A stretch of 64,000 bases of DNA from Polytrichum commune (taxonomy: Eukaryota; Streptophyta; Polytrichopsida; Polytrichales; Polytrichaceae). The position numbers and the translations under genes are program-made. Positions 16,356 through 58,938 of the stretch are shown in pieces (the first letter of the stretch is position 1; the number at the start of each line of letters is the position of its first letter). Where the stretch lies: positions 72,059,554 through 72,123,553 of the forward strand of contig OX485803.1 of assembly GCA_950295325.1 (NCBI GenBank). The letters run 5' to 3'. The notes under the pieces were generated by a model. The model was given only the letters and a program-made list of their open reading frames with translations. It ran no database searches and had not been told where the DNA came from.

Positions 16356-16907
16356 GGGCCGCTTTACACTTAGAGGCCGGGCCAATTCGTTGTGTAAGAG
16401 GCTTGAAATCCTCATTTGTGATTGGTCAAAAGGCTCAAATCGGCCCCAACCCCTTTACATCTAGAGGCCGGGCCGATTTGGTGGTATGATTTTTTAAATT
16501 AAAAAATGTATGTTATGACACGGCCCGAGCTTGTTGAATTGGGTGCACCCAAAATGGAAGGCCAATTCTTGGCCTAGAGGCCAATTCTTGGCCTAGAGGC
16601 CAATGTCATATTCCACTAAAAAAATCTTCTTAAATAAAGTATAATTTTTTAAAGTGAACTAGATCCATTGGATTATGTGGAATCTAAAGGCTCTATCTTA
16701 GATTATGCTACATCCGTTGGATTAGGCTAATTTTTTTGAATCAGCTTGGCTTCTTGGCCCGAGGGCCTTTACATATGGGAAAATTGGCCCCCGGTATAAT
16801 CTTATTATAATGTGTAGTAGAGGCCGGCCTCCAACCCAAAAAAGGCTGAAATTTTGTGCAATCGGCCTCAAGGGAAATTGGCCCGGCCTCTAGATGTAAA
16901 GCGGCCC
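16356..16907. mobile_element. Harbinger-like MITE nested in hAT-like copy A
   Basis: This 552-bp element has inverted ends beginning GGGCCGCTTTACA and extending about 32 bp with two mismatches (both ends also contain TAGAGGCCGGGCCAATT). It is flanked by TAA at 16353-16355 and 16908-16910. The empty site is seen in the two sister hAT-like copies (CCACTAAGGCTTC), which proves insertion. A 3-bp TAA duplication with a GGGCC start fits PIF/Harbinger MITEs. Subterminal motifs repeat inside (TAGAGGCCGGGCC near 16465). No coding capacity. Confidence 0.9.
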
Positions 16908-30463: not shown

Positions 30464-31123
30464 TTATGTTCGGGGAAAACCAACGGCTAGTTCATTATCA
30501 GCCGATGGATTTTCCCTCATGGCCGGTCCAAATTTCCAACCATCGGATGGCAATCCGACTGTAATTTCAATCCTTTGGCAATTAGCCGATGGACCAAAAA
30601 ATGTCCCGGAAATGTAGTCGATTCTTCTTGTGAGTTACTGGATTTCAGCTGGAAGCATCCAAAGCGCTATTTGTCTGGGGCATTTGATGATGCACTTGAG
30701 GAAGTACCCTAAACCTTCAACTTTTTGAATTATGCAACCTTTCCATGACCAAATCCAATTGCTTCTATGAAGAATTGGGGGACCCTTGGCCTTCAAGCGG
30801 TGAAGGCATTGCTAGGTTCAATTCTTGCCAAGGATATTAACTCTTCAAATTTAAACTTTTGAACATGCCTTTCTTTTCACTTATTCAAGATTTTGTACTA
30901 AGAAATGATTTCTAATAACTTTTCATACATTTTTTAAACAATTAGTGCCGATATGAATTCCATTTAATCGAATATTGGCCAATGAAAATATGAAAATATA
31001 GACAATTGGCCGATTGATTTTACGAAAGACCGGCTCTTGTCGATGTAAATTGGAAAAAATCCAACCCTTCGTAGCAACTACCGGCAATTAGCCACTAAGG
31101 CTTCAAAAACTTCCCAAACTCTG
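30464..31123 (+). mobile_element. hAT-like non-autonomous element, copy B
   Basis: Uninterrupted 660-bp copy flanked by the 8-bp duplication GTTTAGTC at 30456-30463 and 31124-31131. Very similar to copies A and C along the whole length, with the same orientation. It supplies the empty-site sequence for the MITE nested in copy A. Confidence 0.9.
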
Positions 31124-37274: not shown

Positions 37275-37450
37275 ATTTCAATCCTTATTTCAAAATGTAG
37301 TACTACATCATGGTCCTAATTAAGTCTTTTGTCCAATTGGACCACCGAGTTGATATTAGAATCTATTTCAATCCTTATTTCAAAATGTAGTACTACATCA
37401 TGGTCCTAAGTCTTTTGTCCAATTGGACCACCGAGTTGATATTAGAATCT
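37275..37450 (+). repeat. Recent 90-bp tandem duplication
   Basis: ATTTCAATCCTTATTTCAAA starts at 37275 and again at 37365. The two units are identical by eye except that the second lacks four bases (CTAATTAAGTC versus CTAAGTC), plus an edge difference. It lies about 200 bp upstream of the small-protein gene at 37665. Confidence 0.92.
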
Positions 37451-37664
37451 ATCTCATGAAGGCCTCTACTGTCTGCACTCCAAGTCTACTCTGGGGAATT
37501 GGCCTTTTTGTCACGATCTTGATGTGATTATAGTCCTCCCAGGCTTTAAAGCCAATTTTATTTCATGTGCAGAATCTGTCCAGCTGTTTTCGCGTGGAGA
37601 ACAGCTACAGGCTTGGAGAACTCCAGTTTCACAGGATAGATTTCTTTCTCATCCACCTGTAGTC

Positions 37665-37934
37665 ATGGCCCAGTCTTCAGGAAATCCCTTCGCTGATCTG
37701 TCTCCAGAGGATCTACCGGAATGGGCCAGCGCTCCAGAACTTGTCAACGCCATAGCAGAACAGCTTGGCGATGAGGCTGGACAGACTTTTGCACAGATGC
37801 TCGAAAATCTTGAGATTCCTGATCGAGTGAACGTTCGGGAGCTTCTTGAAGAGATTGAGGATTTACTCGGTGACCATCACTTCGATCACTTGCTCCATGG
37901 CTCTCGGCGTGGAGAAAGCTCAGCTCCTAATTGA
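37665..37934 (+). CDS. Small acidic protein, paralogue 1 (unrecognised family)
   Basis: An intronless 89-residue reading frame. It is acidic and contains FADLSPEDLPEWAS (9-22), PELVNAIAEQLGDEA (24-38), IPDRVNVRELLEEIEDLLGD (51-70) and FDHLL (73-77). Its closest visible relative is 58684-58938: about 42 of 73 aligned residues agree by hand count, without gaps. I know no family with this signature and assign no function. The ATG at 37665 matches the paralogue's start, and the 20 or so bases before it are similar too (TTTCACAGGATAG versus TTTCACAAGATAG, then GTCATG). The frame stays open upstream, but no homology supports that part. No signal peptide or membrane segment is seen; predicted helices suggest a soluble adaptor-like protein (inference). 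Conservation of the frame between copies argues that it is translated. Confidence 0.75.
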   Translation: MAQSSGNPFADLSPEDLPEWASAPELVNAIAEQLGDEAGQTFAQMLENLEIPDRVNVRELLEEIEDLLGDHHFDHLLHGSRRGESSAPN

Positions 37935-39081
37935 GGATTTTGAACTTTGTCAATCATGACATAGAACGGATACTTACAATGGTTACAGTTTTATTTACTA
38001 GAAGGAAAAAAACAAATGACAAGAAAAAAATATCGGTGTTTCTTGTAACGATGTGAATGTGAGCCCATAGTCCTTATATTGATCATGGTTATTCATGATG
38101 CAGGGCAAGGTGTTTTTCCTTCGTTTCGGAAGTTGGGTTCCGTTTTTATATGTTATAATAGTAACGTATAAATAATATTAGTGTTTCAAATAAATAATCC
38201 CAATGAGAACCACATGTATGTTATCTATGCTCCATGGTCTTTTTGAGATCTACATTGCCAAGAAGTTGTGAATGTCAAACATTTTCCTGGCACAAGGTAG
38301 ACGTGTCTATTTTGTTCATTTATTTTAATTGGACACTTGTATCTGGGTGGTGTGCATCTAAGAACGGAAACCCAAAAAAATGTGTTTAAAAAATATTGGC
38401 CTATCTATTCAATTTATTATTATTATTATTATTCTAGGTTTGATAGGATCAACATAATTGATGATGCCTCCATAAGCACATTATGACTCCGATACTTTTG
38501 ACTTTCAAAATTCGTACCAGAGACATGGGCACTCAATAAGCTCTTTTGACTTCAAATGCTAAAATCTCTTATCGCATTCACGGATCACTTCAAAATTCCA
38601 ACTCTGAAATCCAAGTTCAAATTCAAGTCAAACATCAAAACTATCCATATAAGATATGCTTATGTTAAATCTTTTGAGATGGATGTCAAATACATAAATG
38701 TATTATCACAAGATAAAGCACCCTTAACCAAATAAAACTTTTAAGAAAAACCATTCTCAAAAATTTGCAGTTTACAAATTGTGGTGGTCATAACACGACT
38801 AAGGACATAGTTGTAGATGAGTGGCTGGTCATGATACCCCACCTATTATTATGATAAAAATAATCAACCAAAGCATAATGAAATTCATGGTCTAAGATGT
38901 ATCTAGGGTTGTCTCACTCTTCACAAAATCAACACCAAAACTAGGAGATCTACTCCTAAGGATTTCATGTAGCCTTATGATTTTTATGGGCACATGTGTT
39001 AACCAACTGTTTTATATGGGAATATTATGGTGGAAAATTTTAAGTGACTTTAATATTATGATGAATTGGTAGCATTTTTAG
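37935..39081. other. AT-rich spacer
   Basis: 3' flank of the small gene followed by AT-rich DNA with an (ATT)n run at about 38410-38432. No gene seen. Confidence 0.4.
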
Positions 39082-39211
39082 AACTCTAAGTTCAATCCAG
39101 ACAACCCAATGAATAAATTGAAAGAAAGACTAGTAGTGGCAATTCATGAAGTGGTAGCCCAATTAAATAAGGGGATATTGATAAGGCATAATTTTTGACA
39201 TAATGGCCACC

Positions 39212-40959
39212 CCCGGGTGCACAACTTCCATATTATTCGCAAAGTGCATCGGCATTAAAACAGCTTAGAGAACAACTTTTGTAAAAATTATATCAAATTA
39301 TAAAAAATTAAAAGGACCAAAAAGTTGGGTGGAGACCAAATAAAATAAAATGATATGTAAAATATTTTTGGTTGCATTTTTATTTTAAAAAACTCCACAA
39401 TGTATATAAAGAATTGAAACACCTTTTAAAAACAACCTTGTAGAGTGTCTAATTTAAAAAGATCCACATGAGTAGTTTCCTCTAATTAAAATTAAAAGTA
39501 ATTGGATTTTTTATATAATAAAATATTTTCAAATTTTAATAAAAAAACCCAAAAATCTAGGTAGTTTGGCCTATGTCACTTGTATTGATAAAATTCATAT
39601 AATTAGGTTTTGAATGCAATTATATGCTTCAAAGAATATTGATTTTATGTATATAATTATATTTTTGGATTCCTTGTTAATATGGCTACAAGAATTTCCT
39701 ACATTAAAATTTATATATATATATATATATATCTCACTTGAGATTGGACTAAAATGCATTATAAGTGATTATAATCAGCGCCATATAATATTGGAATTGC
39801 GTACCCGGTGTCGGGTAGAGAGGGTTCCGCCTTGGGAAAGCACTGGGCTTCTGGCTGCAACTAGATTTTATCGGATCCGTCGAATCTTCTGGTCTTCAAT
39901 CGAGTCTTCTGGTTTTCTAGTCTTCAATTTCTTCAATTTCTTCTAATCTTCAACCTCTTTCCCGTCGACCTATCCTGTTGCGGCTCTATATGGGTAAAGG
40001 GTAAGGGTAGTGTGATAAGAAACCACGGGCTTCGGACGGGTAAAACGGGACATCAGAACACGAGTTGACGTCCAAAAGATTGGCTCCTAAACTTTCAAAC
40101 CCACGGTGACCAGCAATCGCGCCTCACCAGTGGAAACGACAGAAAACAACCTTGTGGGTGATCAATCCCACTTCGTTGTCACAAACAACCTTGTGGGTCA
40201 TTAATCCCACTTCGTTGTCACACAGGAAACAAATTACGATGCAGAAATGAAATGCAACTAGCCTCCAAAACCGGCTTGGAATCACACACACAAGAAAAAG
40301 ACAACGTGCCACAAGCAACCACACATTCAAGTCTTGAAGCCTTCAATTCTTCAATCTGTCCGTCTTCTATGGTCGGTCGAAGTCTCAGTTCTTCTTTTAA
40401 GAACCAACAGACTTCCCTCCACTCAAACAAGCACAAATCTTGATTGCTAACTTCCAAAACAACAAGTGAGATCTCTCATGAATCACAAATCCCTCGTATT
40501 TTATTTCATATTCTTCTCAAAACAACTCACACCGTGAGCTTCGAATCCACTTCTCTCTTTCCACAACTTCTCTCCCACAATAATCACATAACATCTTTCC
40601 TTCACCACCTCTCCCTATCCATGCGAGAGACAAAGTTTAATCTTATCCTCATCACATGGCTTCTAATCACCCATTGGTCCAAAGTAACTCAAGATAACTA
40701 AAAGACAAAAATAAACTATGAGTAAATAAAAAGGTAATCTATTTCTATCATTTGGTAAAGGTAACTAAGAGTAACTATGAGTAAACATAAAGGTAAGCAA
40801 CTTCTATCCTTTGGTAAAGATAACTAAGAGTAACTATGAGTAAATAAAAAAGTAATCTACTTCTATTCTTTATTATTTTTCTCCAAGACCAAGAATCACA
40901 ATGCAATATTAAATACGTACACATCTATATAGTGTACGTATTTACATCACGACACCGGG
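39212..40959. mobile_element. CCCGGG-ended TIR element, copy 1 (in gypsy gag; itself interrupted)
   Basis: The left end CCCGGGTGCACAACTTCCAT and the right end (complement of AATTGCGTACCCGG plus G after the inner insertion) form inverted repeats. It is flanked by GGCCACC at 39205-39211 and 40960-40966, and the gag frame continues across when it is removed. Without the inner 39809-40954 insertion it is about 600 bp. Copy 2 is at 48389-48938, copy 3 starts at 63901. No coding capacity. The 7-8 bp duplication suggests hAT or a related superfamily. Confidence 0.82.
39809..40954 (+). mobile_element. Probable solo LTR nested in the CCCGGG-ended element
   Basis: The insertion begins TGTCGGG and ends CACGACA (TG...CA with 5-bp inverted ends TGTCG/CGACA) and is flanked by CCGG at 39805-39808 and 40955-40958. 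It is 1146 bp with no gag-pol, so a solo LTR is the simplest reading. Inside are a 39-bp tandem duplication at 40147-40223 and three diverged copies of a GTAACTATGAGTAAA-containing unit at about 40710-40870. Strand is assumed. Confidence 0.72.
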
Positions 40960-41850
40960 GGCCACCTCCTACCTTGTTTCTTATGTGGTAGATTTGAACA
41001 CAAGGATTTTTTTTGCCCTCATAAGGAAGAAGCCCAAGCAATGTCCAGAAATAGACAAGCACAACAACCGCCTAAGCCAAAAGTTAATCCTCAAGTAGAA
41101 GAGGTAGATGTCAATATGGCGTTAGCAGTCACCACGCAAAACAAGGTTTCAGAGGAAGTCGCATTCAAAGATAGGGAAACCATTAAAAAAATTTGCTAGA
41201 GGATTGGAAATGCAAGGATTATATCAAAATAGGTTTTTTTTAGGCCATTCAATCGTTACAATCAGAGGAGATGGAAGGACCTAGTCAATTTACTGAGTGG
41301 GCAAGACTCACGGTGGTGGAGATACCCAAATTAGTCAAGCAAGATATTTAGGTAGAATTGAAGGAGGTATTGTCAGATATAGGTTCGCAAGTGCTAGACA
41401 GTAAGTATACCTCAACCCTTGAACAATTTATGTAGTTAGCACAAGTCCTTAGACGGCATCTTACTACACCATCATTAGTGAAACTTGCTAATCGAGTAGA
41501 GATTTAACATTATGAAAGAAACTGTAGTTGCAAGAGCCATTGATCATCATATTGTAATAATTCCAGTACAAGTTGGACGGAATATGGCAGAAGATCTTTT
41601 GCCAGATGGGATATCACGCATTAATATCATCACAGTAGACCTGAGAAAACAATTAGGTTTGCTAACCCCAAAACCCACACCATATAATTTATGAATGACG
41701 GATCAAACTATGGCTTAAACGGTAGGATTAATTAAGGACAATTGAGTTGGTATTCACAATATACCATATACCGTAACATTTACTGTGATAAACAATAGTG
41801 TGAAAGATGACACTTACTCAATGTTATTGCACATGCCGAAGAAATTTGAA

Positions 41851-42740
41851 GGCCTTGAAAGAAGGAATGTTAGGAACATAGTAGGCTTGTTTTGTTATTT
41901 TAAATAATAACTTATAGCAGTAAAGGAATTAATCAAGTAGACAAGATCTTGGTATGCTAGCCCAATACCGTATGACCTTGGTAAGGATATGGGATTATAA
42001 GAGTAAAGTCTGGGATAGTGTAAGAAAGAACCAGTTGGGGGGTTATACCATTAAGGGCAAGGTATGAGAGGTGAAGGAGGAACTATCGAATAAGCTATCT
42101 AACTACCGGATGGTTTGGAATGGCAACGATAGGAGGTCATACCCTCCTCCAGACTTACAATGTTACTAGGATTGTGGAGTAAGGTAGCCATGCACAGAGA
42201 GGACGGTAGGTAATGAATATAGACGTAATTAAGGCTAAAGTGACGAGGAAAGGGTCAATACCAATAGAAGGGGAGGGATTGGTAGCAATCCTAGAACTAG
42301 AGTCTTGGTGACTGAACATAATAATTGTATGGTTGGGAGATGGAATTGGAAGCGGTAGTATCAAGGGGGTTAATTGGTAATATACTATAACCGGTAGCTC
42401 AGTAGTCCAGTACGGGGAATGATGATAAGTTGGTAGGACTTAGAGAAGCATGGGCGGTATAGACATGATTACCGTACTATGGTAAAACTGTTAGGTTGTA
42501 GAAGGGTAGGAGGGAGTCGAGTATGATAAGAACAGTTGATTCTACTAGGGGTAGAATAAAATATTCTACAACATTCGTTGTCATTTATAAAGTTTTTTCT
42601 TGCTTAAATTTTTTTTGATTTGGCCTCAGTTGACTACTTTGTTTTTTACACGCTATATTGTTGAATAAATATGCTCATAGTATGCTATACTTGTTTATGA
42701 TACAATGCACATGTAACAAAAATATGTGTTACATAAGAGA
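41851..42740. other. Spacer or decayed retroelement tail
   Basis: Purine-rich sequence on the plus strand from about 42000 to 42540, possibly the rest of the gypsy remnant, but no polymerase motif was found. AT-rich after 42560. Confidence 0.35.
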
Positions 42741-42753
42741 TGCACTCCATATT

Positions 42754-43125
42754 AGGCACCACGGGCCTTGGCTTGGTGGTTAGGGCTCATGACCCCCAAT
42801 GAGGAGGTTGTGGGTTCTATTCCCCATGCCGGCGTGGTGCTCACCACCTTAGTCCACCCAACTATGGTGGGGGGTCCTTGGACCTTGTTGTATGGGTACC
42901 TCAAAGCCCTTTGGGGGGATACCATGTCCGGTATCTTCAAGGCACTAGTGGCTAGCTAGGAACTTGTATAGTGTGGCACTATAGTGTCCATCCTCGAAAG
43001 GGGAGAGTAGTATTTGTCCCAATATCCCCTTGTCCAGTGGGCATCGGGTCATTGGCATTACGAACGGACACTTTATTCACGCCGGCCCCTTGCTTGAAAG
43101 GGGTTGGAGTTTCTATCTATCTATT
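42754..43125 (+). mobile_element. tRNA-derived SINE with perfect 13-bp target duplication
   Basis: The element is 372 bp, flanked by TGCACTCCATATT at 42741-42753 and 43126-43138. Its head is tRNA-like: A box TGGCTTGGTGGTTAGGG at 42769-42785 and B box GGTTCTATTCC at 42813-42823, at normal spacing. It ends in a short TATC repeat (TATCTATCTATT), like plant SINEs with simple-repeat tails. Non-coding. An intact duplication suggests a recent insertion. No second copy was seen in the window. Confidence 0.92.
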
Positions 43126-43138
43126 TGCACTCCATATT

Positions 43139-43730
43139 TGAGGTTGATTTTTTCCATTTCTATTTTAGCCTTTTAGGTCGATCTGCCAATAGAACTACAT
43201 GTTTACAATTTCAAGCGTACAAAATTCATGCACAAGTCTACATTTACTTAAAATTTTAAATCTTATTCCCCTTCTTCTACATTAAAAAATGACTCTTTAT
43301 GTAGTATTGATATGTGGAGCATCATAGGCACATGCTTTGGTTGCAATACACAAATACATGAACTTTTACAAATAGTCTAGAATACGAACAACATCAATAA
43401 ATAAAATTGCTTATTAGTAACTCATTTGGTACGAGATTTGATTTGATTTAACTAGACTCAAGCCTAGGGGATGGACTCTTCATTGGAAACCTAAATGATG
43501 TGTGTGGGTGATTATAAAATAAAATCTCTTATATACGAGAAATCTATAGCGTCAAATAAATGTACACAACATTATAATGTTAATTTGGGATTTTTTGGGC
43601 ATTTTGAGACATTTACAAACATAAGAACATAGATAAAATCACACAGATATTGGAGAATGTTGTAAGATGCAAATACTTTCAAGCGGGTATTCATATCAAG
43701 AACCCAATTAAGAATTCATATCAAGATGGT
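43139..43730. other. AT-rich spacer
   Basis: No gene or element ends recognised. Confidence 0.35.
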
Positions 43731-44320
43731 TTAGGTAGGACAATCCAAACATTAGACCATATTGAAGGGGAAATCGTATAACACTCATATCATTGCAAGT
43801 AGAATATACAACGTATGGCATTAATTGAATAGCATACTAACGCCACAAATCCATTGGATAGTGTGACCAAAAATCATCATGCCTATGCGCAATGTCTACA
43901 CCTACAATGGCCTCTAGAGCCTTGGATTAGGTAGGACAATCCAAACATTAGACCATATTGAAGGGGAAATCGTATAACACTCATATCATTGCAAGTAGAA
44001 TATACAACGTATGGCATTAATTGAATAGCATACTAACGCCACAAATCCATTGGATAGTGTGACCAAAAATCATCATGCCTATGCGCAATGTCTACACCTA
44101 CAATGGCCTCTAGAGCCTTGGATTAGGTAGGACAATCCAAACATTAGACCATATTGAAGGGGAAATCGTATAACACTCATATCATTGCAAGTAGAATATA
44201 CAACGTATGGCATTTAAATTGAATAGCATACTAACGCCACAAATTCATTGGATAGTGTGATAAAAAATCATCTTGCCTATGTGCAATGTCTACGCCTACA
44301 ATGGCCTATCTAGCCTTGGA
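43731..44320 (+). repeat. 196-bp tandem repeat, three copies
   Basis: TTAGGTAGGACAATCCAAAC starts at 43731, 43927 and 44123, an exact 196-bp period. Units 1 and 2 look identical; unit 3 has a few changes (for example TGGCATTTAAATTG and CATCTTGCC). The array is short and recently formed. No frame is kept along it. Confidence 0.95.
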
Positions 44321-46842
44321 GACTGCATCTTTTTCTTTTGCCGCCGATTCTTTTGCTCGCATGGCTTCAACATTCTTGAAAATCTCCGCACCGTGACTAT
44401 AGCCAAGGTCAGGACGTGGGCCCACCATAACATTTTTTGGAGTCCATCAAGCGCCCGATTTATAGGACGAAGAATTCGAATACGATGAAGTGGACTCTCT
44501 TGCATTTCTGGGCATGGCGTACAAATGCTTCAACTTGATGGACACACTGGACCGCGGAGGTTTAGGGCTAGACGCAACCTGCAACTCATCAGACCGGCAA
44601 ACATGTGTTACTTTGAAAAGAAAGACCCAAACATGTGACCTAGTTCTTTCAAGATAGACGGATTGTAATGTATGGTTTAGCCATGCGGGGGTTGGTTTGT
44701 GGGGGGTCACCTTGGCATGAGGGGCACTCACATCCGAGTTAGCTTGGAGAAGCAAAACGTCCCGCAAAGGAATGTGGAGGGGTCCACTCTTTGTAGGCCG
44801 AGCGTCCATCTGCAACCGCCGTTGAACAATCCATTCACACTATCCTAAGTGTCCATCTACAAAAATGTTTGTGCGCCGCCAAAAATTGAGCATAGTTGCA
44901 CGTGGGGATAGGGGCGGGAGGGTGGTGTCAGCCCTAAACCCCCAGCCTTGTGCATCGTAGTCCGGGTGAGAGCCTATGGCTCACATGTACTTAATTAATC
45001 CCCTTAGCCTCGGAATCCAACTCCCAATAATCCTCCAATACGAATATTGAACACACAACTTTTATTCAAGATTGAGAGGTAACAAGTATTTAAAAATACT
45101 CTCCTTCCTCTTAGTCATTGCCACACCACTCACAAGCCTCTAACACACAACCATGGGATAATTAACTAACCAACACAATATCCCAATGGTCTTGGGCAAT
45201 GCCAATTGTACCTTTGGCATACCCCTCTTATTAACTCACTATACTAATCTATCCAGCCCACCCCCTAGCTTCCAACCTTTGGCTCCACCTATCAACCTCA
45301 CTCACACTGCTACCAAGGTGAAATCACAACAGTGCACCTAATGCTCTGCCCAACCAGCACAATAAGCTGGGCTTAGCTCAAATGACCGTAGTCAGGGACC
45401 CTTACTGTTCCAGCCACCTGGCAGCCCTTGGGAGCCCCTTGGATAGCTTCCCGACTCGGCCACTGTGAGTTAGCCTCCAAGGCAGCTCTACCACTGATTT
45501 GAGGCCGCAACTCCCCTCACCATACCCACCTCCGCTGCCACATGAGGAGGAGAAGTGGCAAGTGCCCAATTTGGGAATTCTTGTAAACAACTCCAGCAGC
45601 TGCGGCAAGGTGATGCCCACTTCCACTTGTCTCTTCCCATTGGTTAGAACATGGCAGATTGGTTTGCATGCAGCTCAAAATTCATTTAGATGCACCTAGC
45701 TTTGACTGTAGCGATGATCGACTCTTCGCTTGCTGAGAATTCAGCAACATTGTCCAGGCTTACCATTGTCGAGCCAGGTGAAGAATGCTGGTGGCCAATG
45801 CAGCTCAGCTGCTGCTGAGAGATCTGAAACCATTGTCAGCAGCAATGCAGGCTAGAACTCCTCACCTCTTTCGACCATCAGTGAACCTTCCTCAGATCCA
45901 GCAATGTGTTTTCACCCTTGTATCTACGCCGAAATCCCTCGCCTAATGCCCTAACTTCCAGCCTAGTCGCCGAACAAGGCCCCAACCTCACTCCCTGTAA
46001 TCACCTTCACTCAGTCAACACTGGCAAGAACTTCTTTGGCGCTTCTGCACCCACAACAGCTCCTCAAATCCGCCCAAACTCTGCTTCCGAAGCAGCCTCC
46101 CCTGTTACCAACCGATTCAGGGTTCACCCTTCACACAGAAGGCCGTAAAAATCACCATGTTTGCAATCTGTATTGAGCTGGTGGATCCCAATTTACTTGT
46201 CTCGCTTACACTCATCGTCGTCTCTCTTCCTGCTTCTGCATCCTTCGACTGCCCCAGTCCTAACAAGAGAAAAAAAACCGGGAGAGAACAGGGCTTCCGC
46301 CCACATCTTTTCTCTCTTCTCCTCCAGCCTCTTTCTTTCTCAAAAACCGAAGAGAGAGAGAGTTCGGCACACTGCCAACCACTCCAGGGGACCCCTTCCA
46401 AGGATCCGGAGATCCTGGTTCTCATCCATAGGCAATGAAGCCCAAGCCCTTTATTGAACATCTCCAAGGCCCTAAACGGCCGATTTCAATGCCTCAAGTC
46501 TCTCAAGCTTCCATCACTCACTTAATTACACACCCCACACTACGTTTTCCTCCTTCGACATTTTAACAATTCACCTAAAATACTCACCACCTCACATCAA
46601 AACACATTTACTAATCTAACTTTAACACATCATTTTTTTTTTATCGTTTTTGAATATTCAATGTCAAAACAAAACCTAAGGTTTAATGTTTTTTGTAGAT
46701 TAGGAACACATGTGGGCACAAGATTGAGCTCACAGGTGGACAAGGGGGGGGGGGGGTAGTTCCTCATAGCTAGGGGGACATGACCACACCAACAAGACAA
46801 TGGCCTAGGAAGTTTGGGTCAATCAACCCAAATTGGGAGGTC
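44321..46842. other. Spacer, partly C+T-rich, no gene assigned
   Basis: From about 44930 to 46480 the sequence is C-rich on the plus strand with overlapping open frames on both strands (45906-46148, 46117-46467, 46157-46457) that show no family signature; an LTR or other repeat is possible. A (GA)n run lies near 46352-46361 and a poly-G run at about 46745-46757. 46698-46740 resembles the start of repeat R1. Confidence 0.4.
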
Positions 46843-49199
46843 TCAGTATATTACCTCATCTTGGTCATGTCTGGGCGTTGCGGAAGGCTCCACCATGTCT
46901 GTTGTCCCACCTCTCTCTCCACCGCCTTCTCCGACGATGTGAGCAACCTGCTCCCGCGAAGGCTCAATATCAAGCCCTTGTCCTAAACCAACCTCCGCAT
47001 GTGCATCATGCATGCGTTCATCGATTTGGTTAGGAATAGAAGTATTACCAGGCCCTTGCGGGCCTTCAACATCTAACATGGTTATGTCTTTTTGACACCC
47101 ATGTTGGTCAAGGGGAGACTGAGATACAACATGCTTTGGGTTGCCTGGCCCAAACCCTCTTGTATCGGGGGAGTCACCTTGGGGCACTACAGGGGCGAGC
47201 GGGTTTGGGTCGGGCGACCCAAACATTTTGGGGTTGTCCTGCTGATGAGGGGGGGGGGCATCACTATGGGCGGCCGAAGTGGTGGGGGGCCCAAAGGGAA
47301 AGAAACCCTGTGGATGTGCCAAATGTTGGGATTGTCCACCTGCTGGACCGGGGCGTATGGAACAAGGTGGGGCCACATCATGTGCTGGAAAGTGAAGGAC
47401 GGTTGCGGGACGGACTGCTAAGGGATGCTCTGTGGAGGGAAGTCAGGGGGCAAGTGTGGAAAGGAGCTCAAGGGAGCCACCACCAAACCTTGCGCCCACA
47501 TCCTTTGTATCACTTGCGAGATCAAGTCCACGCTATATGGAGGTTGTGCCATCGCCCTTTGTCGCTCCCGCTCCAACATGAGAGCCCTCAATTTTGTGAC
47601 TTTGTTCCTCACCAAGGGTTCTCCTGCAACAACCTTCTGCAAGCGGATGCGTTGCTCCTCGTCCCTCAACATCTTCTCATTAGCCTCCTGCACAATGAGG
47701 ACTTCGGGTTTCACCCTCACCATGTCGGTGAATGTTGTGGGGGAGGGAGGATCCAACCTGAGCCGTTTGGTGAGCTCCATGTCGTCCTTGTCCTTGTTAC
47801 TTATAGCGATGGCCTCCTCCATCGCATAATCGCCATAGAGTTTCTTGCCCTTTAGCCTCTTCCTCACCCTGAAGGTGGTTGTCGCATCCCTGGAGTACAT
47901 GTCCCTCGCATTGCCCACCATGAGGATGCGCACCAACTTACTTTGCAAAGTTGCCATCCGCAAAGTTTTCTTCCATTGAGAGGTTTTGGGTTCTTTTGTG
48001 AATCCCGTTGCCCTTTCCTCCACCTCACCACCTGCTACCCGGAACGCATTGCCCGAATGCAATCCAACCAGAGGTTCGGGAATTTGGAGTGGGGCCCTCG
48101 TGGCGATTTCTTCGGGGTTGATATGCCTCGCCTTATCCAATGGGTTTTCACCCCCCTAAACGATTTCCTCGACGTAGCTTCCCGGGATCCAATTGAGGAT
48201 GTTCATCTTCTTCGCCAACGACTTCTAGGTTTTATAAAATAAAAAATCACCATTTTCTATGTAGGAGTAGATGTTCAACCCCAACATCTACACATTCCTA
48301 GAACATTAGTATTAGAATTACGCTCATTAAATTACACCAAAAAAAGAAAAAGAAACAGTAAAAGAAAACCAAAACAAAGGGACCCACCCCCGGGTACGCA
48401 ACTCCCATATTATACGCAGGGGGCATCGTACTTAAAACGGCTTAGAGGACGGCTTTTGTAAAAATTATATCAAATTATATCAAATTAAAATGATCAAAAA
48501 GTTGGGTGAAGACCAAATTAAATAAAATGAGATGAAAAAAAAGTTGGGTAAAGACCAAATTAAATAAAATGAGATAAAAAAAAAAGTTGGGTTGCATATT
48601 TATTAAGCCTCCCATTAAAATTATAAGCCACGAATAGTTGCCTCCCATTAAAATTATAATTCATTCACAATGTTAAAATTTTATTAAAAAATCCAAAAAG
48701 TTGGGTAGTTTGACCTATGGTACCTGTATTAAAAAAAAATCATATAATTAGGTTTTTAATGCAATTATATGCTTCAAAATATATTCATTTCCTATATATA
48801 ATTACATTTTTGGATTCCTTGTTAGAAGGGCTACAAGGGTTTCCTACATTAAACAAATTGTATCACTCAATATTGGACTAAAACGCATTATAAGTGATTA
48901 TAATCAGGACCATATAATACGGGAGTTGCGTACCCGGGGACCCACCTAACAAAAACAATACTAGTTTGGGTCGGTCAGCCCAAACCATGAACCAACATTC
49001 AAAGTTACTTACCATGGCAGCGTAGATGGGTTTGGAGCCCCTAAAGATGTTGAAAATATTGTCTCCTCTCTTCATTAGAGTCTCCATTATCCATAGGTAG
49101 AACTCCATCCGTAGCTCATCGGCAAGATAGTTGGTGTTACGTGCCTCTCCATGAGGACTGTCCAAAATACCATGGGCACAAGGTGTCGCAACCCTTGCT
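46843..49199 (-). pseudogene. Broken coding region of an unrecognised gene or element
   Basis: Three minus-strand pieces look collinear. The upstream piece (about 49199-49013) reads ATPCAHGILDSPHGEARNT-type sequence and ends at a good donor (ATG/GTAAGT, GT at 49012-49011). A middle piece (about 48237-47418) has an in-frame TAG at 48158-48156 after GSYVEEIV, then about 240 codons of Arg/Lys/Glu-rich sequence (MYSRDATTTFRVRKRLKGKK, then helical ERERQRA). A last piece (47376-46843) is Pro/Gly-rich in another frame. So it has at least one stop and one frameshift. The presumed intron holds the CCCGGG-ended element 48389-48938. I recognise no family; a host gene relic or a transposon-borne gene are both possible. 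Confidence 0.45.
48389..48938. mobile_element. CCCGGG-ended TIR element, copy 2
   Basis: 550 bp, flanked by GACCCACC at 48381-48388 and 48939-48946. Ends CCCGGGTACGCAACTCCC and its complement match over about 26 bp with one difference. The interior shares long stretches with 39212-39808 (AAAAGTTGGGTG, AGACCAAAT, TATAAGTGATTATAATCAG). It has an internal duplication of a GTTGGGTAAAGACCAAATTA-type unit at about 48499-48592. Non-coding. Confidence 0.9.
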
Positions 49200-50189
49200 A
49201 GCCCCTTAACAATCTTGCCCCATTTCCTTTTCTACCACGGGTTACGAGCGCTAACCCTTCGCATTCCGCCATGCTAATGGTTAGCTCCTCCTACCCCGGA
49301 CCTTATAGTTCATAAGAGGAGAACCAACCCTCCTACATTGCTTTCGAGACTCACCCCTTAATCGGTAACTAATTCTTAGATGTGGTCTTCCATCCATGGA
49401 AGTCCAATCTTATGTTGATCATCGCGTTGCCGGAGCAACACTACAACAACCCGAACCATACTAGGCAACTATGGCCGCACATTGGGCCAAAGCCCATGGA
49501 GGTTGTGCCGTTCGGTCTCGAGTGGGTGAGGCCACACCACCTCACCCATATAAGCCTTTAGGAATCTAGGCAGGACCCCTACTCCACCGTCAAGAAACCT
49601 CTTGTCTCTCTACCAAGAGTTGGGGCCAAGTAGACATTTTCCCTTAGCCGCTGAGCCTAGAAGCCCCTAGCAGCTTCAGACCATCATAACTTCTTTATAT
49701 GATCTCTGATGCTAACAAGAAACCACTCCATCTTCATCTATGTTTTACGTAGATGCCGATGGACTCCTCATTTGCCCCATTTGGGCAAGTATTGAGGAAG
49801 TTATTCCTGTTCAAACTTTGGCAGTCCCGGGAGTCACTCCCACGCCACTGCTATACCAGGGCGCTGTCCCGGGACAGCGCCCCACTCAAATTGCCATACT
49901 CCTAGCTCACACCTCCGATTGAGGTGATCTTGAGCATTCTAGAATCACCACGCCACGAGTTGTGCATAGCTCATGGCCTTATCCTCATGCCTCCTAGTCT
50001 CCGTGAGTGGGAGGCGTTCCCAACGCCCGGGGCCCTCACCCACACTAGGATCACTTGGGCCCTCTCACCAATAGTGCCACAAGTCCCGGGTGTCACTATG
50101 CATGTGGTTGTGTCCATGTGGTTCACATATCTAATGCTTGCTCCATATTTGGTTGTTTTTTTTTTGTTCAACATAGTTTGCCCCCCTAT
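49200..50189. other. Unassigned sequence upstream of the broken minus-strand gene
   Basis: May include more of the minus-strand gene's 5' part (a frame with ALVTRGRKGNGA-like sequence near 49210-49270), but frames are interrupted. Plus-strand frames at 49740-49922 and 49924-50193 are not recognisable. Confidence 0.3.
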
Positions 50190-51170
50190 GTGACACCCCT
50201 CTCCTCGATGGCCTTTCCCGTCCCCCCTCGTCCCCTTCTTCCCCTTCCCGCGGCGTGACGGATTCCCAGATCCCCTCCCTCTACTAGTTCTCGGCGGTGG
50301 ACGCAGCCTCGACCATGGATTACTTTCGGGACGTCGACATTGACGACGGTGTTGTGAACAACCCGCTCCCCAAAGTTGTCGCCCGTGCGTACGCCCCGTC
50401 GCCCTCTCCCCTCTCCAAGGAAAAGCGAACGCTCGTTCGGTTGGGACATGTGTCGCCCTTGAGGGATGACGCCATCACTCGTCGTGGGGCCGAGCCAACG
50501 TCTCTGCATGGAAGCTCCCCAATGCGACCCCTCCCTTGTCGACTCCACTCCTCCTCCCGCAAACTCGTCCGCGATTGTCGGCCCTCCATGCCTTGCTTCC
50601 CCCCCAATTATTCAACAATGTCACTGTTCAATCGGTTCCGGATGCTCCCCTCAACGCCCCCGCCATGCCCATCATGCCCAGCATCGACCTCACCAAAGCC
50701 AAGGTGCCCTTCTTTGTCCCCTCCCCCTTTTTCACCGTTGCTTTCCTCTTGTCTCTACGTGCCGGGAACTTTACGAGCGCCCATCCCAAACCGCCCTCAT
50801 TATTTTCTCCACTTCATTCTTATTCTTATTTTCCTATGGCATTATTTCGCAAGTGGCTCCCCACTCGCTTGGTGGCCGGCCCTCCTCGACTTCTTCATTG
50901 GATAGGCATGCCCTCAAGGCCGCATCTTCCAAGTCCAATCGTTGTCTGGCCCTCCAGAGAAGTACAAGACGTTCCCTCTCATGAACGTCCTCGTATTCCA
51001 CTTACAATACCACCTCTTACAATTCGGGAGCGCGTCCGGATATGTGGAAGAACGACACATATTCTGATCCAGTCAACAAACATGGATACAGTTGTGGGCC
51101 GGAGATTTTCAGAGCCATGGAGGCTGCCAAAAACAAGGACATAGCCATGACAAAAAAAAGTAGTGGGACG
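50190..51170 (+). pseudogene. GC-rich broken coding remnant, unrecognised
   Basis: This block is clearly richer in G+C than the AT-rich DNA on both sides. Three plus-strand frames overlap at 50297-51144, suggesting one reading frame broken by indels. Protein-like pieces are MDYFRDVDIDDGVV (50315 on), MPIMPSIDLTKAKVPFF (about 50665-50715) and YSDPVNKHGYSCGPEIF (about 51060-51110). I recognise no domain. The sequence could be a retrotransposed or transposon-captured gene fragment. Confidence 0.35.
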
Positions 51171-52397
51171 TGCAAATGAGACTAGAACCGTCTATTTGAT
51201 ACCTAAATGCGTGCAGGGGTAGAACGTAGTGCTTGGTTATTTATTATATTTGAAGGTCTTCAAGACATTGATGGTATTTCCATTATATTTGTATTTCAAG
51301 CCCATTGAGTGGATTCAATTTGCAATCGTTCTCCTCATATTCCCTTCCATTGGCATCGATTTCTCATTTCATACGCAAATGCTTTCATGTATGCTTCACA
51401 TTATTTTTTTCACTTTGATGCATTTATGTCTGATAATTATATCCAAAACTATTTACATGGGATATTTATGTTGTCATTATTGATCCAGATTTGAAAATCG
51501 CGTCCTTAAAAAGGTCTCAAAATCATCAAAAAATCTCCGATTACCGAATACAGTGATCTTAACTCCTTATTAATGTCCTATGCAACCATAATATGGTTGT
51601 GAACAATTCGCTCTAACCCTTTGACACTAATTCAAATGGTTTCTAGAGATTGTTTCAAGTACTCCTATTGTTCATGTTCAAGTTTGTTGTGTCATGCCAC
51701 GTGGATAATTTTGATTCAAAAAAATTGGTTATTTTATAGTTATTTCAAATATGGGAGTGTGCACTCAACTAGTTTACAGTGGGACTATCACCACCGCAAT
51801 TTAGGGGCAAGATATCTTAAACATATTTTTTTGTTGATCCCTATGTGCAAATGATTCCCAATAAATTTGAAAATATGCATGACACTCAAGCGCAACATAT
51901 CCTAAACATCTAGTATTGGAATTCTTAGTTGGACTTGTATTGGTGGGTGTAAATCCATGTGGAAGGTGTGTAATTGTGGCACTGGTGCCTCAAATTGCAA
52001 AGCTTCTCAAAAAGTCACAAAATAATGATTTCAAGATTTGTGAGCAATATTGAGTAGGTATATTGCCCCTCTTTTGAATGAGGGTAACATTTTGTCATTT
52101 GGAGACGATTTGAGTGGAGGTTTGATAAAAAAAACCAACCCCAATTTAATTTCTAAAATGTTGCCTCTCAAGACCAACATTAAAATCTATTATAATCTCC
52201 TACATAACGGAACTTCAACATTTGAAATTTGGACAATGAGTAGACACCTCTAACTTGCAAACACCTATACGGTTGGATTTGTCAAAAAAAACTTTAGATC
52301 TTTAGCTACGATCGCTGAAATTGAGGGAAAGTGACCATGGGAAGTGAGGGGTTAAGGAGAGTTAGTTGAGTTGCTTTGACCTTTACTCCGATAACCG
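51171..52397. other. AT-rich spacer with one orphan element end
   Basis: 51533-51560 (TCTCCGATTACCGAATACAG then TGATCTT) resembles the right end of the MITE at 32240-32495; its left partner was not found. No gene seen. Confidence 0.4.
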
Positions 52398-52405
52398 ATT
52401 CCAAC

Positions 52406-53066
52406 CTATGTTTGGGGAAAACCGACGGCTAGTTCATTATCAACCGATGGATTTCTCCTCATGGCCGGTCCAAATTTCCAACCATCGGATGGCAATCCGA
52501 CTGTAATTTCAATCCTCCAGCAATTAGCCGATGGACCAGAAAATGTCCCGGAAATGTAGCTGATACTTCTTGTGAGTTACTGGATTTCAGCCGGAAGCAT
52601 CCGAAGCGTTATTTGTATGGGGCATATGATGATGCACTTGAGGAAGTACCCTAAACCTTAAACTTTTTGAATTATGCAACCTTTCCATGACCAAATCCAA
52701 TTGCTTCTACGAAGAACGGGGGGACCCTTGGCCTTCAAGCGGTGAAGGCATTGCTAGGTTCAATTCCTGCCAAGGATATTAACTCTTCAAATTAAAATTT
52801 TTGAACATGCCTTTCTTTTCACTTATTCAAGATTTTGTACTAAGAAATGATTTCTAATAACTTTTCATACATTTTTTAAACAATTAGTGCCGATATGAAT
52901 TCCATTTAATCGGATATTGGCCAATGAAAATATGAAAATATAGACAATTGGCCGATTGATTTTACAAAAGACCGGCTCTTGCCGATGTAAATTGGAAAAA
53001 AATCCGACCCTTCGTAGCAACTACCGGCAATTAGCCACTAAGGCTTCAAAAACTTCCCGAACTCTG
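52406..53066 (+). mobile_element. hAT-like non-autonomous element, copy C
   Basis: 661 bp, flanked by ATTCCAAC at 52398-52405 and 53067-53074. Same ends and orientation as copies A and B, with scattered substitutions. Non-coding; contains the tRNA-like block at 52726-52775. Confidence 0.9.
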
Positions 53067-53074
53067 ATTCCAAC

Positions 53075-55987
53075 CCTCAATATTTTTACAAACTTTGCCT
53101 ATCTCTTGTTTGTAATCCTATTATCACAACGGAAAGTGAAGAATCAAGATTGTAGACATACCTGTATTTTTGGTTATTATATTGTGCCCCTTTGCGCCCC
53201 CCCCCCCTCTTTATATATTAGCTGATAATAATGTATTATAAATATACACAAACGCGAGACTTCAGTTGTATCCGCTGCCACAATTGCATAGAAATATATA
53301 TGTAGTGGAGTTTAGAATTCAATACTGTATAGGTGTGCTCCAAAGTCCTATGGCACTTTGTGGTTATCATGTCAACGTGGAGTCCGCTTTTCCTCTGATG
53401 AATGTCAACATGAAAGAGACCATATACTGTTGCTTGAACACAGTAGTCTATGTTGCATAGTGAGTTATTCAACAAAGTTCACGTCAAATCTCAGTCCGTG
53501 ACGCCCAGTTTGGTTTCCTAATACCTACCAAGGGGGTAATAGTAGGAATTGACTTAATAGGTCAGTTGCTTATTCATCCCAATTTAAGTTAATTTAAGGT
53601 TTTTGATCCCAATTTTAGGGATTGTTTTTTCTGTTTAAATAAAAATTTCAACCCTATTATAACCGTAATCAATGTTCTCACTTTCCCTTCCCCTAGTTCA
53701 CCCTCCCCTCAATAGGTGTTGTGAACATATGTCCCATGACACCTACCTACGGTGCAATAAAATTGTCCCTTTCAAGTTTGTTATTAATGCATTTCAATTA
53801 GCTTTTACTACATCAAACTATATTGAGGTTGGACTCTAACCTTGATTTAAGAGTCGATTTAGCTAAAAACATTCTTTATGGAGGACTACAATGTTTTAGT
53901 GTGTTGTCATCACCCTCCCTCTGGTAGGCCGCGTCATAGAACTTTGCATGTTTCATCTTAAAACCTAGTAAGTGTATCTAGAAGGTTGCTTATGTGCCCA
54001 TAAAGTGATGTATGGTTCAACCCTTTGAGCATTGGAATATAGTTTTCACGTAGAATTTAACATGGTCTTGACCAATGTGAAGTTAACACGTGGTAATTTT
54101 ACCCAAATAATTTTATTTTGTGTCAAACCATAGAATAGCTTACAATAACCTTGTTACATATACCAATCACACTAAAGTTGAAAAAATATGAACCAACAAA
54201 TTTGTCTTTAGCCCTTAATCATAGTGTAAACACCCCATAATTTGACCTCTCAATATCAATCTCCCACATGGTTAGATCTTGCTCAAATCAAGTGGTTTTT
54301 AGGAGTTGATTTCCCCAAACATAGGTATTGAAATTAACTATAACCTTCAAAAGCTTGGCTATAAAAAAATATTAAATGGTCCAAATTCCTTAATACCTAT
54401 GAAGCGCTCATGAGTCACATCTCAAGAGACATTATGATAACTTATTAGTACATGACCATAGTATCATGCTTGCAACTTTCCACCTATCTAGGGTTTCTGT
54501 AATGCCATCAAATCATATCTCAAGTAAAAAATTCCTTCCATAACATTACTTAGCTAAGTGTGTATCTTGGGTGGGGCTGGGAATTAGCAAGATTCTATTC
54601 ACAGTTATACTTTGTTTATTCTCATAGCAAAACATTGCGATGGCAGATTTAGGCTGAAAAACTTAGGTGAAGTAGTGCACTAATATTATTAGAATAAAAT
54701 GGTTGATAGCAATTGAATAATTTTATGTCATCAAACCAATGAGATTTGTGATTTAAGATAAATTATCAAATTTTCTTATAATTGTAAGAGGATTGTAGGT
54801 ATTGATTTTATGTATCTTGAATTGTATGGAAGTAATATTTTATGGTGCTGCACAACTTCCTATTTCTGATGTTTCTTGAGTAAACCATTGGAAACATGTT
54901 AGCTCAATAACACAACTTAGAAAACGTTTTACCCTTCAGGCTTTGTGAGTATTTAAAAACTATCAAAGCAATCAACTGTTTGCATGCTTGAGACAAAAAC
55001 TAATTTAATGGCAAATTAACCTTTAAGAGTCTGAGAGGCCCTCTCTTCCAACATTATTACATGCAGAATTGTTTCTTTGAACATAGCATACTCTATTTCT
55101 TGTTGATTAGGTCAGAAGTGACCTTATGTAAAGTTAACACATTTAGCAAGTGCACTTTAGGTTCAAAATTATGATGTACAAAGTCATATTTTCAAGCCAT
55201 ACATTGGACCCCTTAGACCTGTAACTAGTAAGGAGGTCCACCACAAAGGGCCAACCGCCAAAGTTCAAATCCATGTAAATTAAGCTTAATATGAGGCAAC
55301 TCCGTGTCCATAGCATCTCGTAACTCTCACCCAAGTTGCACATCAATCAAAATGTTGTTGAAATGTTTTACAACCTTGAATCTCAGCAACCAACAAACTT
55401 GTCGTCAAAGAATGTCAAGTCATGCTAAGCTTTGAATCCTTTGAGGAGGTAACTATGATTTTTGACCATTTGATGGTACTATGATATATGTACAGTAGGT
55501 ACTCACTTGTAAGCCGCACAATTCAAGTGTAGCTAAATTAAGCTAGGAGGTTTTTACAAATGCATATATTACATGAATTAACTTGAGAGCTGAGGGGTTT
55601 ATCTTTTTGATCAAACTCACCATTACATGACATGTTTGTTACAGACACTAATTTGAATGCACTGGAAGGGTCATGAAAAAGAAAAAGTCTAAAATATGAT
55701 AACACTTGTCTTTGAGGAATGTTAATGTAGTATCACATTTCTCAAGGTGAAGACAAAGAAAGACTCCACTGGGTCCTTCAATTAAGATGAAAAAATTGGA
55801 TGATAAAAGTCCAACAATGAAATGAACTTGATTTTCAAGTCCGGGAAGCCGAAAGGCTTATGGGACAATAATTTTTTTATGTCATGAGTAGTAAGGTAGC
55901 AATCTAGCACCCTGGATGAAAACTTAAATCAAATGTAAGCATGAATACAACAAATTTGTTGGAAAGATTACATTGATTCACCGTATT
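53075..55987. other. AT-rich spacer
   Basis: A poly-C run of about 11 lies near 53199-53209. Open frames are short and unassigned. I see no gene. Confidence 0.35.
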
Positions 55988-56170
55988 AGTGCGTGTTACT
56001 ATTCGGAGTTATGCAGTGCAATAATGTCTTATAGGGGAGTTCAATATTTACTAATGAAATTTTGATAGATTGCTCGGACATTATAAAACGTAAATGAATT
56101 TTCTTGGTAAAATATTACATTCTCGTTGAATAGTTATAGCACTGCGTAACTCCAAATAGTAACACACACT
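55988..56170. mobile_element. 183-bp MITE with about 32-bp inverted ends
   Basis: The left end AGTGCGTGTTACTATTCGGA continues GTTATGCAGTGC; the right end complemented reads AGTGTGTGTTACTATTTGGA continuing GTTACGCAGTGC. Three mismatches in 32 bp. Interior AT-rich, non-coding. No unambiguous target duplication, so the superfamily is open. Confidence 0.82.
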
Positions 56171-57788
56171 CATTGGGATAATCAGTGTACCAAACTGCCA
56201 AAAGTCACTCTACAGCAAAGTGGGAACTGTGAATCTTGACGTTCTGTGTTGTCAATGGAAATTGTCAATCCTGCGTAGTCTGCTGAAGTGAGCTCTGTGT
56301 CATCCAATTCAAAGACTCCTGGATATACTAGCACGGATGAACCTTAAATCTTGCAATCATCGAATTGGTCTTGGAAGACTCTCAAACTACCGAAATAAGT
56401 CACCCTTGCGTCGAAAGTAAGAGCGATTGGAGAATGTTGACATGCAGGAATTTAATGGCATGAGCCTGGTGGTCTTTTTTTCCACTTGTCAGCTTCTTCA
56501 TCTCTTCCTCAGTTCTTATTCAGTTCCTGCAATTCCTGGTGTGGTTGGGATCTAAGGCGACACCAGCGTCAACCGAGAGGTCAAGTGCTTTCAAAGGAGA
56601 CTTCGTAGCCAAGGCACCCGATGGAGCATCTCCATGACCCACCAACTGGGCCCTAAAAGATGACAGGGGTGGGTCACTCCTCTTTCTTCTTCTTTTTCCT
56701 TTTTAAAACAATGAAATGAGACGCTTTGTTGGGGCTCTCCTTCATTGCCAAACAGCACACAAGGCCACCGCGGCTCAAAACAGGGAGAGAGGGCCACACC
56801 ACTTCTGGTATCTAGTGTCACATGCGTAACAGTGCCACTTACATTATTTTGAGACATATGCTAGGTTATACTAATGATCAACATCTAAATCATTATTAAT
56901 GTCACCTCATAACACTTGACATTCAAGTGTGATGCTTGAATATGTTACCATAATGTTATGAGGGGTATGTATATGTTACACAATGATCTACAAGTTAACT
57001 AAAGTGTACACAAATGATACTTGGCACTAGTATGTTCAAGAATAATATCTTCCTCTTGCATACAAGGTGACAATTGTGCACAACTTGGCTGGATGAATTT
57101 AGAAAAAACTTCGTCCACATGTTGCTTGCTCCATGAAAAAGGGGAAATCCCCCAAATGACCTCATGTGACCCCCTCTAACTTTGAGGGGGACTTCATCTA
57201 AATTTGCTCCAAAAAAACCCAAATTTTTGAGAGTACCTCATTTATCATCCACTTAGCATAAAATTTGGCAGAGTTGCCAACTTTCTAAACTTGTGACATG
57301 ATCAAAATGATCATGAAACGAAAAGTTTCAGAGTTGTCTCTAGCTGCCCCCGGATGAAGGCCATGTTCATATGTCAACTTGACCTAGAAAATGTGGTCCG
57401 ATTAACTCCCACCAAGAATATATAGTAGTCTAATTCACATCCACACGGTTGGTTGAATTGAAGAAGACAGATCCTATTTGGCTACATAACAGAAAGGTTC
57501 GGCCAAGCACTGGTGCTGGAGGTGGCCGAAAATGGGATGTGAAGGCTCGAGCGAGCGTTTAGGGGTTAAGCCCCACAAAGCTTCCCAGACACTGAGCCGA
57601 TGTGGGACCTAGGGCGAGGGAAAGAGCAGGCGCAAGAGATGTGACGCGGGAAGCTCCGCACTTGCCACCCTAGCTACCCTCCTCGCATCATTCTTGCTCT
57701 CCTCCGACGGAGCAGCAGGAGCAGGACGAGGAAGAGGAAGAGGAAGCGCAACAGCCTGCGATCTCTCTCTCTCGCTCACCAGTTAACT
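56171..57788. other. Spacer and G+C-rich promoter-like stretch
   Basis: 56171-57500 has no recognised gene. About 57520-57780 is G+C-rich with a CTCCTC/GAGGA-rich tract and a (CT)n run just before the ATG at 57789, which looks like a plant promoter or leader. Confidence 0.35.
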
Positions 57789-57983
57789 ATGTCCTCGCCA
57801 TCCCACGCCCGGCCTGTGAGATTGTCAGCCGTTATTGCGGGACTGGCGAGTTTAATTTATCCTTTTTATACAACCTTCGGAGGAAGACAAGGAGGATGGG
57901 AAGAAGCCGCAGCTACCTCGCATCGAGCGAGCTCACAATTGGACATACTAATAAGGTATTCATGGACTTCGAGGAGCGAGTGA
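57789..57983 (+). CDS. Possible small membrane-anchored protein
   Basis: A 64-residue frame after a G+C-rich, CT-rich leader. It starts MSSPSHARPVRLSAVIAGLA and has one hydrophobic segment at about residues 11-29 (LSAVIAGLASLIYPFYTTF). It could be a complete small protein or the first exon of a longer gene; possible donors downstream were not resolved. I do not recognise it. Support is only the promoter-like context and the single membrane segment. Confidence 0.25.
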   Translation: MSSPSHARPVRLSAVIAGLASLIYPFYTTFGGRQGGWEEAAATSHRASSQLDILIRYSWTSRSE

Positions 57984-58500
57984 GTAAGTAAATTCGTTGG
58001 AGTAGCTGGAGTGGCTCCCAAGAAAAGTGAGGCCTATAATAAAATGGCACGCGGGGGAATAACTAGTCATCGGGGGTGAATTGCATACGAAGGTGTGCAG
58101 ATTGAGCCAGGAGGGAACTTTAACCTTTGCCACCAGATTTTTAAATACCAGAACTTCCTTCGCGGATGAACAAATACCGACTCCCGCCGGCAGCAGGTGT
58201 CGAGGTTTCGGAAACACATGCAGGAATGCAGGAGCCAGTCATTGATAGCCATCACGAATCCATCGCTTGACATTCAAGCTCCAATTTGCCCCGCGCTACT
58301 AAACTACAATTCCTTCATTGTACCGGATTGACATTCTGTAACTTGATTAGTACTGAAAGTTGCGCGAGTAGCTGATAAATCAATATTATTACTCCAGTTC
58401 ATCAAGACTCAATTTGATAAGTTAATTACATGCATGCAGATTGTTTGGAAAATCGAATTCAATGCTGTTAGGCACGTGTAATTTGGAGTCAATCCCTTCT

Positions 58501-58683
58501 AGCTATAAATTGGGCCTGGACCTGAAGCAGGTCATCCTACAACTTTCAAACCTATCTCAAAAGGTTAGGTTCTGATCTACTTAGAGCTCACAGCTAAGTT
58601 AGCAGATACATACTCAGGAGGATTTGTAATTCTTTCGGTGCTAATTTCACAAGATAGGCAGTGCTTTGTCAGATCTGGGAGTC
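58501..58683 (+). promoter_or_regulatory. TATA box and leader of small-protein paralogue 2
   Basis: CTATAAAT at 58503-58510 is a good plant TATA box, 174 bp upstream of the ATG, implying a leader of about 140 bases. Part of the leader just before the ATG resembles that of paralogue 1 (TTTCACA(A/G)GATAG). Confidence 0.55.
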
Positions 58684-58938
58684 ATGGATCCCCGGGAAGT
58701 TTTCGCAGACTTGTCCCCTGACTCCTTACCAGAGTGGACCAGTGTGCCTGAGCTTTTGTACACCATAGAGACTGAGCTCGGAGATGATGCTAGGCAGCAG
58801 CTGGAGCAGTTGCTGGAAGGGCGTGACCTGCCTGACCGGGTGAACGTGCGGGAGCTCCTCTCTGAAATACAGGAGGAGCTCGGTGAACCCTACTTCGACC
58901 ATTTTCTCGATGGAGACCAAGATGACTACGATGAATAA
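58684..58938 (+). CDS. Small acidic protein, paralogue 2 (unrecognised family)
   Basis: An intronless 84-residue frame, strongly acidic with a DGDQDDYDE tail. It shares with 37665-37934: FADLSP (7-12), LPEW (15-18), PEL (22-24), LGD (32-34), PDRVNVRELL (50-59), EI (61-62) and FDH (71-73). About 42 of 73 aligned residues match, with no gaps. A TATA box at 58503 supports transcription. No signal peptide, membrane segment or known catalytic motif is visible. The acidic tail replaces the SRRGESSAPN tail of paralogue 1. The start is fixed by homology and by a similar leader. I do not recognise the family and propose no function beyond a small, probably soluble, helix-rich protein. Confidence 0.78.
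   Translation: MDPREVFADLSPDSLPEWTSVPELLYTIETELGDDARQQLEQLLEGRDLPDRVNVRELLSEIQEELGEPYFDHFLDGDQDDYDE

Follow-up and report, generated by a model that had tools for sequence, protein, structure and literature searches.

Do two short open reading frames (ORFs) in a 64,000-nucleotide stretch of the Polytrichum commune genome (assembly GCA_950295325.1, contig OX485803.1, positions 72,059,554 to 72,123,553; hereafter the window) represent genes, and what kind of protein would they encode? The first, gene A, occupies window positions 37665..37934 on the plus strand and encodes an acidic protein of 89 amino acids (aa), and the second, gene B, occupies positions 58684..58938 on the same strand and encodes an acidic protein of 84 aa, each as a single-exon coding frame with the stop codon included in the coordinates. 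An earlier note had described them as an intronless, selected pair of paralogues from a family it did not recognise. Re-derivation returned the coordinates, lengths, strand and frames exactly as claimed, and "intronless" is true of the coding frame. The results showed that the pair belongs to a trio of homologues, A, B and C, which descend from old duplications and have been maintained by purifying selection, and each of which carries one strand-helix motif twice. The third paralogue and the internal repeat are additions to the earlier note, whose observation is confirmed and whose interpretation is partly supported.

ORF length alone is no evidence for the two genes, because ATG-started ORFs of at least 80 aa number 38 in the window; the evidence is conservation. 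A and B share 41 identities across a gap-free core of 70 residues, in agreement with the roughly 42 in 73 counted previously, in comparison to 38 of 70 for B and C and 30 of 70 for A and C, B being the nearest relative of both. The cores of A and B are 66% identical in DNA, and their 72 nucleotide differences are distributed as 20, 11 and 41 over codon positions 1, 2 and 3, an excess at the third position with a one-sided binomial p of 3e-5. Whole-genome tblastn with A as the query gave an E value of 1.1e-21 for B, the other E value of this search that speaks for homology being 5.1e-11, and the same search located gene C at positions 72138077-72138334 on the minus strand of contig C1, with a stop codon immediately past this interval. 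Gene C thus lies outside the window, on the strand opposite to gene B and beginning 19.8 kb past it, and its product is 86 aa long; the three genes together span 41 kb of one chromosome. All three proteins are 9.8 to 10 kDa in size and strongly acidic (isoelectric point, pI, 4.05-4.17), and the tails of A and B differ (basic and Ser-rich versus DYDE-rich) and are not conserved, which bears out the earlier description of small acidic proteins with differing tails and may mean divergence of role.

The copy number was examined with several searches. The whole genome gave three tblastn places with A, three with B and four with C; the fourth place of C (E 2.8) lies inside a reverse-transcriptase-type element and was discarded as a family member. 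A degenerate DNA pattern for LPEWx4EL[LVF] matched the whole genome five times (four for the reversed-pattern control), three matches being the family and two not, and a pattern for [VIM]NV[RS]EL[LF] matched 24 times (23 for the control), of which three are the family, 17 were read and rejected and four are unread. In the 124 kb around the cluster, a profile search in six frames recovered A, B and C, with the next best match at E 0.064. No fourth member was found in the whole genome by tblastn with the three proteins or by the two degenerate patterns, searches which a diverged or intron-split relative could escape. Within these limits, A, B and C are a genuine family of three genes.

To measure selection, codon models were fitted to the three cores in IQ-TREE, and the ratio of nonsynonymous to synonymous substitution rates (dN/dS, or omega) ranged from 0.068 to 0.092 across six fits, far below 1. 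An omega of 1 is rejected, since imposing it lowered the log-likelihood by 34.7 to 39.2 units in the four nested comparisons made under the GY and MG models. Pairwise estimates for A and B were 0.12 to 0.36 depending on the method, with dS of 1.0 to 2.4, and the NG86 synonymous distance was saturated and undefined for A/C and B/C, which makes the duplications old and the pairwise values rough. No larger duplicated segment is visible, because the 11-kb regions around the genes share little beyond the coding match. In the A/B comparison, the blastn matches are the coding sequence itself (187 bases), a single dispersed repeat, two stretches of 25 bases (E 0.008 and 0.029) and weaker ones; between A and C the best match reached only E 0.10, and between B and C there was only one distant repeat. 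Shared repeat borders around the three genes were not found in these blastn comparisons of the 11-kb surroundings, and the dispersed repeats sit away from the genes. Of the earlier proposal of a selected pair from a local duplication, selection and an old local duplication thus stand, with three genes in place of two.

Each of the three proteins contains one motif twice, as LPEW-x4-EL[LV]... in the first unit and as [VI]NVRELL...LG in the second. In gene A the first repeat (LPEW..., residues 17-48) lies at 37713..37808 and the second (IPDRVNVRELL..., residues 51-79) at 37815..37901, and in gene B the first (LPEW..., residues 15-46) lies at 58726..58821 and the second (LPDRVNVRELL..., residues 49-77) at 58828..58914, all on the plus strand and delimited by repeat alignment together with the structural model. 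In B, for example, LPEWTSVPELLYTIETELG aligns with LPDRVNVRELLSEIQEELG. The half-to-half local alignment scores were 37 (A), 45 (B) and 48 (C), and were matched by 2, 0 and 0 of 2000 shuffles, respectively. When halves were compared across proteins, none of 1000 shuffles reached the score of four of the six pairs; the two weaker pairs both involve the second half of C, whose score against the first half was reached by 31 of 1000 shuffles with A and by 15 of 1000 with B. The summed 3 x 3 column score, for hand-placed segments of 30 residues, was reached by none of 20000 column shuffles. The spacing of the repeat is about 34 residues, and the unit consists of a short strand and a helix followed by a second helix. 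Each alignment spans 17 to 21 residues and comprises a unit's strand and its first helix; a correspondence of the second helices as well is suggested by the models.

The family was absent from the family libraries searched, in keeping with the earlier remark that it could not be recognised. Pfam gave no match over its curated cut-off for A, B or C (best E 0.022), NCBIfam none for A and B, the two proteins searched there (best E 0.012, 15.6 bits in comparison to a cut-off of 94.7), and PHROGs only weak scattered matches for the three proteins (best E 0.05). Among PDB sequences, the best match of A was a chain named PS1 (E 0.0005, residues 32-72), accompanied by two similar helical proteins, all of which we take to be designed proteins, and the family profile found rat RAP at E 0.006, with single-stretch significance nowhere; these PDB matches were treated as matches of helix composition and were not accepted as kin. 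The search for sequence kin covered the P. commune genome as the sole plant, prokaryote genomes, viral contigs and, for B, plasmids. None of 96 pattern matches in the prokaryote genome collection and none of 40 in viral contigs was confirmed by tblastn, and no plasmid matched B. Among viral structures, Foldseek with the model of B gave 43 matches, none with E below 2. Among the matches listed, the literature on peptide motifs, degenerate EF-hands, microproteins and moss-specific genes yielded no paper on such a family.

The AlphaFold2 models, which are of moderate confidence, had a mean predicted local distance difference test score of 72.6 for A and 73.3 for B and a predicted template modelling score of 0.54 and 0.56, respectively, and both show the order strand-helix-helix-strand-helix-helix, with strands of 2-3 residues (two in B) and low-confidence ends. 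By Foldseek, 21 of the 27 matches of A were EF-hand entries, as were 48 of the best 50 of 332 matches of B. When these matches were rechecked by VIA-align, 22 of 23 rows for A and all 50 of the rows listed for B were EF-hands, all tallies being counted from PDB entry titles, with 1eg3, 5e37, 6ycy and the calmodulin complexes included on our assumption that the matched chain is of the EF-hand class. In addition, profile comparison by hhalign of the family with 12 EF-hand pairs of P. commune (the best 12 of 48 matches) aligned ELxxxI and DRVNVREL with the EF-hand pairs in the expected register. EF-hand loops bind calcium through ligands at positions 1, 3 and 5 and a glutamate at position 12, and the equivalent of this glutamate is the only ligand place invariant in both repeats.

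Other results weigh against an EF-hand-like reading. No Foldseek match had a better E value than 3.3 with A or 0.62 with B, the best Z scores in the VIA-align recheck were only 4.5 for A and, after trimming, 5.1 for B, no Z of 5 or more was obtained with the whole models, and a Z in this range may, according to the tool, reflect only a common arrangement. Both models were built on the same three sequences, and the PDB abounds in EF-hand structures. The hhalign comparison had a P of 0.27, and shuffled versions scored as high with the EF-hand hidden Markov model (HMM) in 52 (A), 163 (B) and 215 (C) of 1000 cases. Pfam listed no EF-hand family for the three proteins at E up to 10, no sequence match placed them in the EF-hand superfamily, and their alignment contains no DxDxDG-type calcium loop. 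Since the calcium ligands are absent, the profile P is 0.27 and the HMM fails to tell the proteins apart from their shuffled versions, the family was not filed under EF-hands; judging from the models, it may nevertheless work like a degenerate EF-hand pair.

Elsewhere in the genome, eight of the loci with EF-hand matches (contigs C2, C4 and C5; e.g. L015, L018, L020 and L024) have them in uninterrupted frames of 535-584 codons, and HRD and DFG kinase motifs were present in all four of the loci read. Because the EF-hand and kinase motifs share uninterrupted frames, genes for calcium-dependent protein kinases (CDPKs) seem to be intronless in P. commune.

A binding protein is the most economical reading of A, B and C, because they are acidic two-unit helical proteins of 9.8-10 kDa in which neither a catalytic nor a metal site can be recognised; they are probably small docking proteins, an ordinary function. 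The earlier guess of a binding or adaptor protein had been drawn from LPEW and the RELL helices; the helical model suits a small binding protein, whereas LPEW and RELL turn out to be two copies of one motif. Our best guess, which we hold tentatively as one possibility, is that the three selected paralogues have a half-calmodulin-like, calcium-independent role in binding helices. The two strands of each protein would pair, presumably with the four helices packed around them, and in the absence of the calcium-ligand loop the protein would act like a degenerate, calcium-independent lobe of calmodulin or of a myosin light chain. The groove between the two units would hold an amphipathic helix of the partner constitutively, so that the protein might be an adaptor or else a small inhibitor that competes with relatives which sense calcium, and the unconserved tails may tune the choice of partner. 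The partner and the role named here are guesses.

Several known systems can be compared with this arrangement. Apo-calmodulin and myosin light chains bind and hold an amphipathic helix constitutively. The EF-hand pairs of calmodulin, myosin light chain lobes and the calmodulin-like domains of CDPKs are likewise small, acidic, helical two-unit domains with a weak overall likeness to the two models, and hhalign aligned their loop end and last helix to [VI]NVREL of the family; they differ in that A, B and C lack the DxDxDG loop, that the loop of the family is shorter by some two residues when aligned by hhalign, and that no sequence match is significant. KIC and the PBP1-type proteins are small acidic plant EF-hand proteins which dock on a protein partner, and they bind calcium through a canonical loop, in contrast to A, B and C, which have none. 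The AtSCS variants, among them AtSCS-B, the short variant of the SnRK2-interacting calcium sensor, have three EF-hand-like motifs (PMC8465348), in comparison to the two units of A, B and C.

The alternative which survives best is that the same selected trio has a private helical fold which arose by internal duplication and is unrelated to EF-hands, with a protein-binding role that could not be predicted from known families. This is a serious possibility, if short of a probable one: the lack of EF-hand sequence kinship, the failure to pass any family cut-off and the low structural scores all favour it, against which the neighbours of the two models fall mostly in one fold class. It is rather unlikely that the trio is part of a wider plant family, not peculiar to the lineage, whose uncharacterised members plant databases already contain. 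The old duplications would allow time for wide inheritance, and the plant search comprised the P. commune genome alone, but no Pfam cut-off was passed, which suggests a narrow distribution without proving it; this alternative is a matter of distribution and fits either mechanism. A bolder form of the half-calmodulin reading, which we hold to be improbable, is that calcium-independent "half-calmodulins" with no recognised kin arose in a lineage of non-flowering plants when a strand-helix-helix unit was duplicated, expanded to three genes and became small constitutive competitors for the helices bound by calmodulin or CDPKs.

A tandem ribbon-helix-helix protein, a pseudo-dimer in one chain binding DNA through its strand ribbon, is highly improbable. 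The strand-helix-helix order does occur twice in the model of A, and in B with two-residue strands, but the strands have only 2-3 residues, so strongly acidic a composition would be unusual for DNA binding, and Pfam listed no such family at E up to 10; ribbon-helix-helix entries were also missing from the matches listed by Foldseek and VIA-align, which excludes nothing. That these are transposon-derived or chance ORFs without function, as small ORFs in a repeat-rich region might be, is scarcely credible and is refuted in the main by the codon-model omega, which is well below 1; the three copies in one cluster are also unlike the many dispersed copies with common element borders of a transposon.

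The leaders before the ATG had been described as similar, and this did not withstand a shuffle test: 25 of 500 dinucleotide shuffles did as well as the best local alignment of A and B within 300 bases upstream, which joins unequal positions (A -299..-276 with B -140..-118), and a short string, TTTCACA[A/G]GATAG, precedes the ATG of both by eye only. The upstream alignment of A and C (A -279..-246, C -298..-267) was reached by 2 of 500 shuffles, the downstream alignment of A and B, 14 bases located 268 past the stop of A and 26 past that of B, by 4 of 500, and the three remaining flank pairs by 222, 335 and 409 of 500. A possible TATA box of gene B lies at 58504..58509 on the plus strand, with no ATG between it and the start codon, for which the evidence is weak. 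A unit of 92-96 bases, 95% identical, is repeated in tandem at window positions 37275-37456, about 200-390 bases before gene A.

The window also contains a dispersed repeat of roughly 640-660 bases, probably a recent mobile element, with copies 95-96% identical at 15723-16357, 30465-31123 and 52407-53066, and a second dispersed repeat with copies 79-88% identical at 39212-39807, 48389-48936 and from 63901 onward into locus L011. Exons of a MATE transporter are present at 24517-28168 (Pfam MatE, E down to 1.4e-21), and an exon at 10566-10994 has a weak match, short of the family's cut-off (E 2.8e-6), to WEMBL ("weak chloroplast movement under blue light"). Seven contigs of the assembly are 42 to 78 Mb long. 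A contig of 146.6 kb (C8, locus L050) with an open chlL frame and 22.8% GC over the 3.8 kb read is presumably the plastid genome; flowering plants are not known to carry chlL, so the frame marks the plant as probably a non-flowering one.

Small plant genes of restricted distribution are many, and their reality and role are hard to judge. The A, B and C trio offers a good concrete case: selection is clear, the domain is internally repeated and the fold can be tested. If the half-calmodulin reading is not true, the three would be an orphan family of modest interest; if it is true, plant calcium signalling would gain in them a competitor that is independent of calcium.

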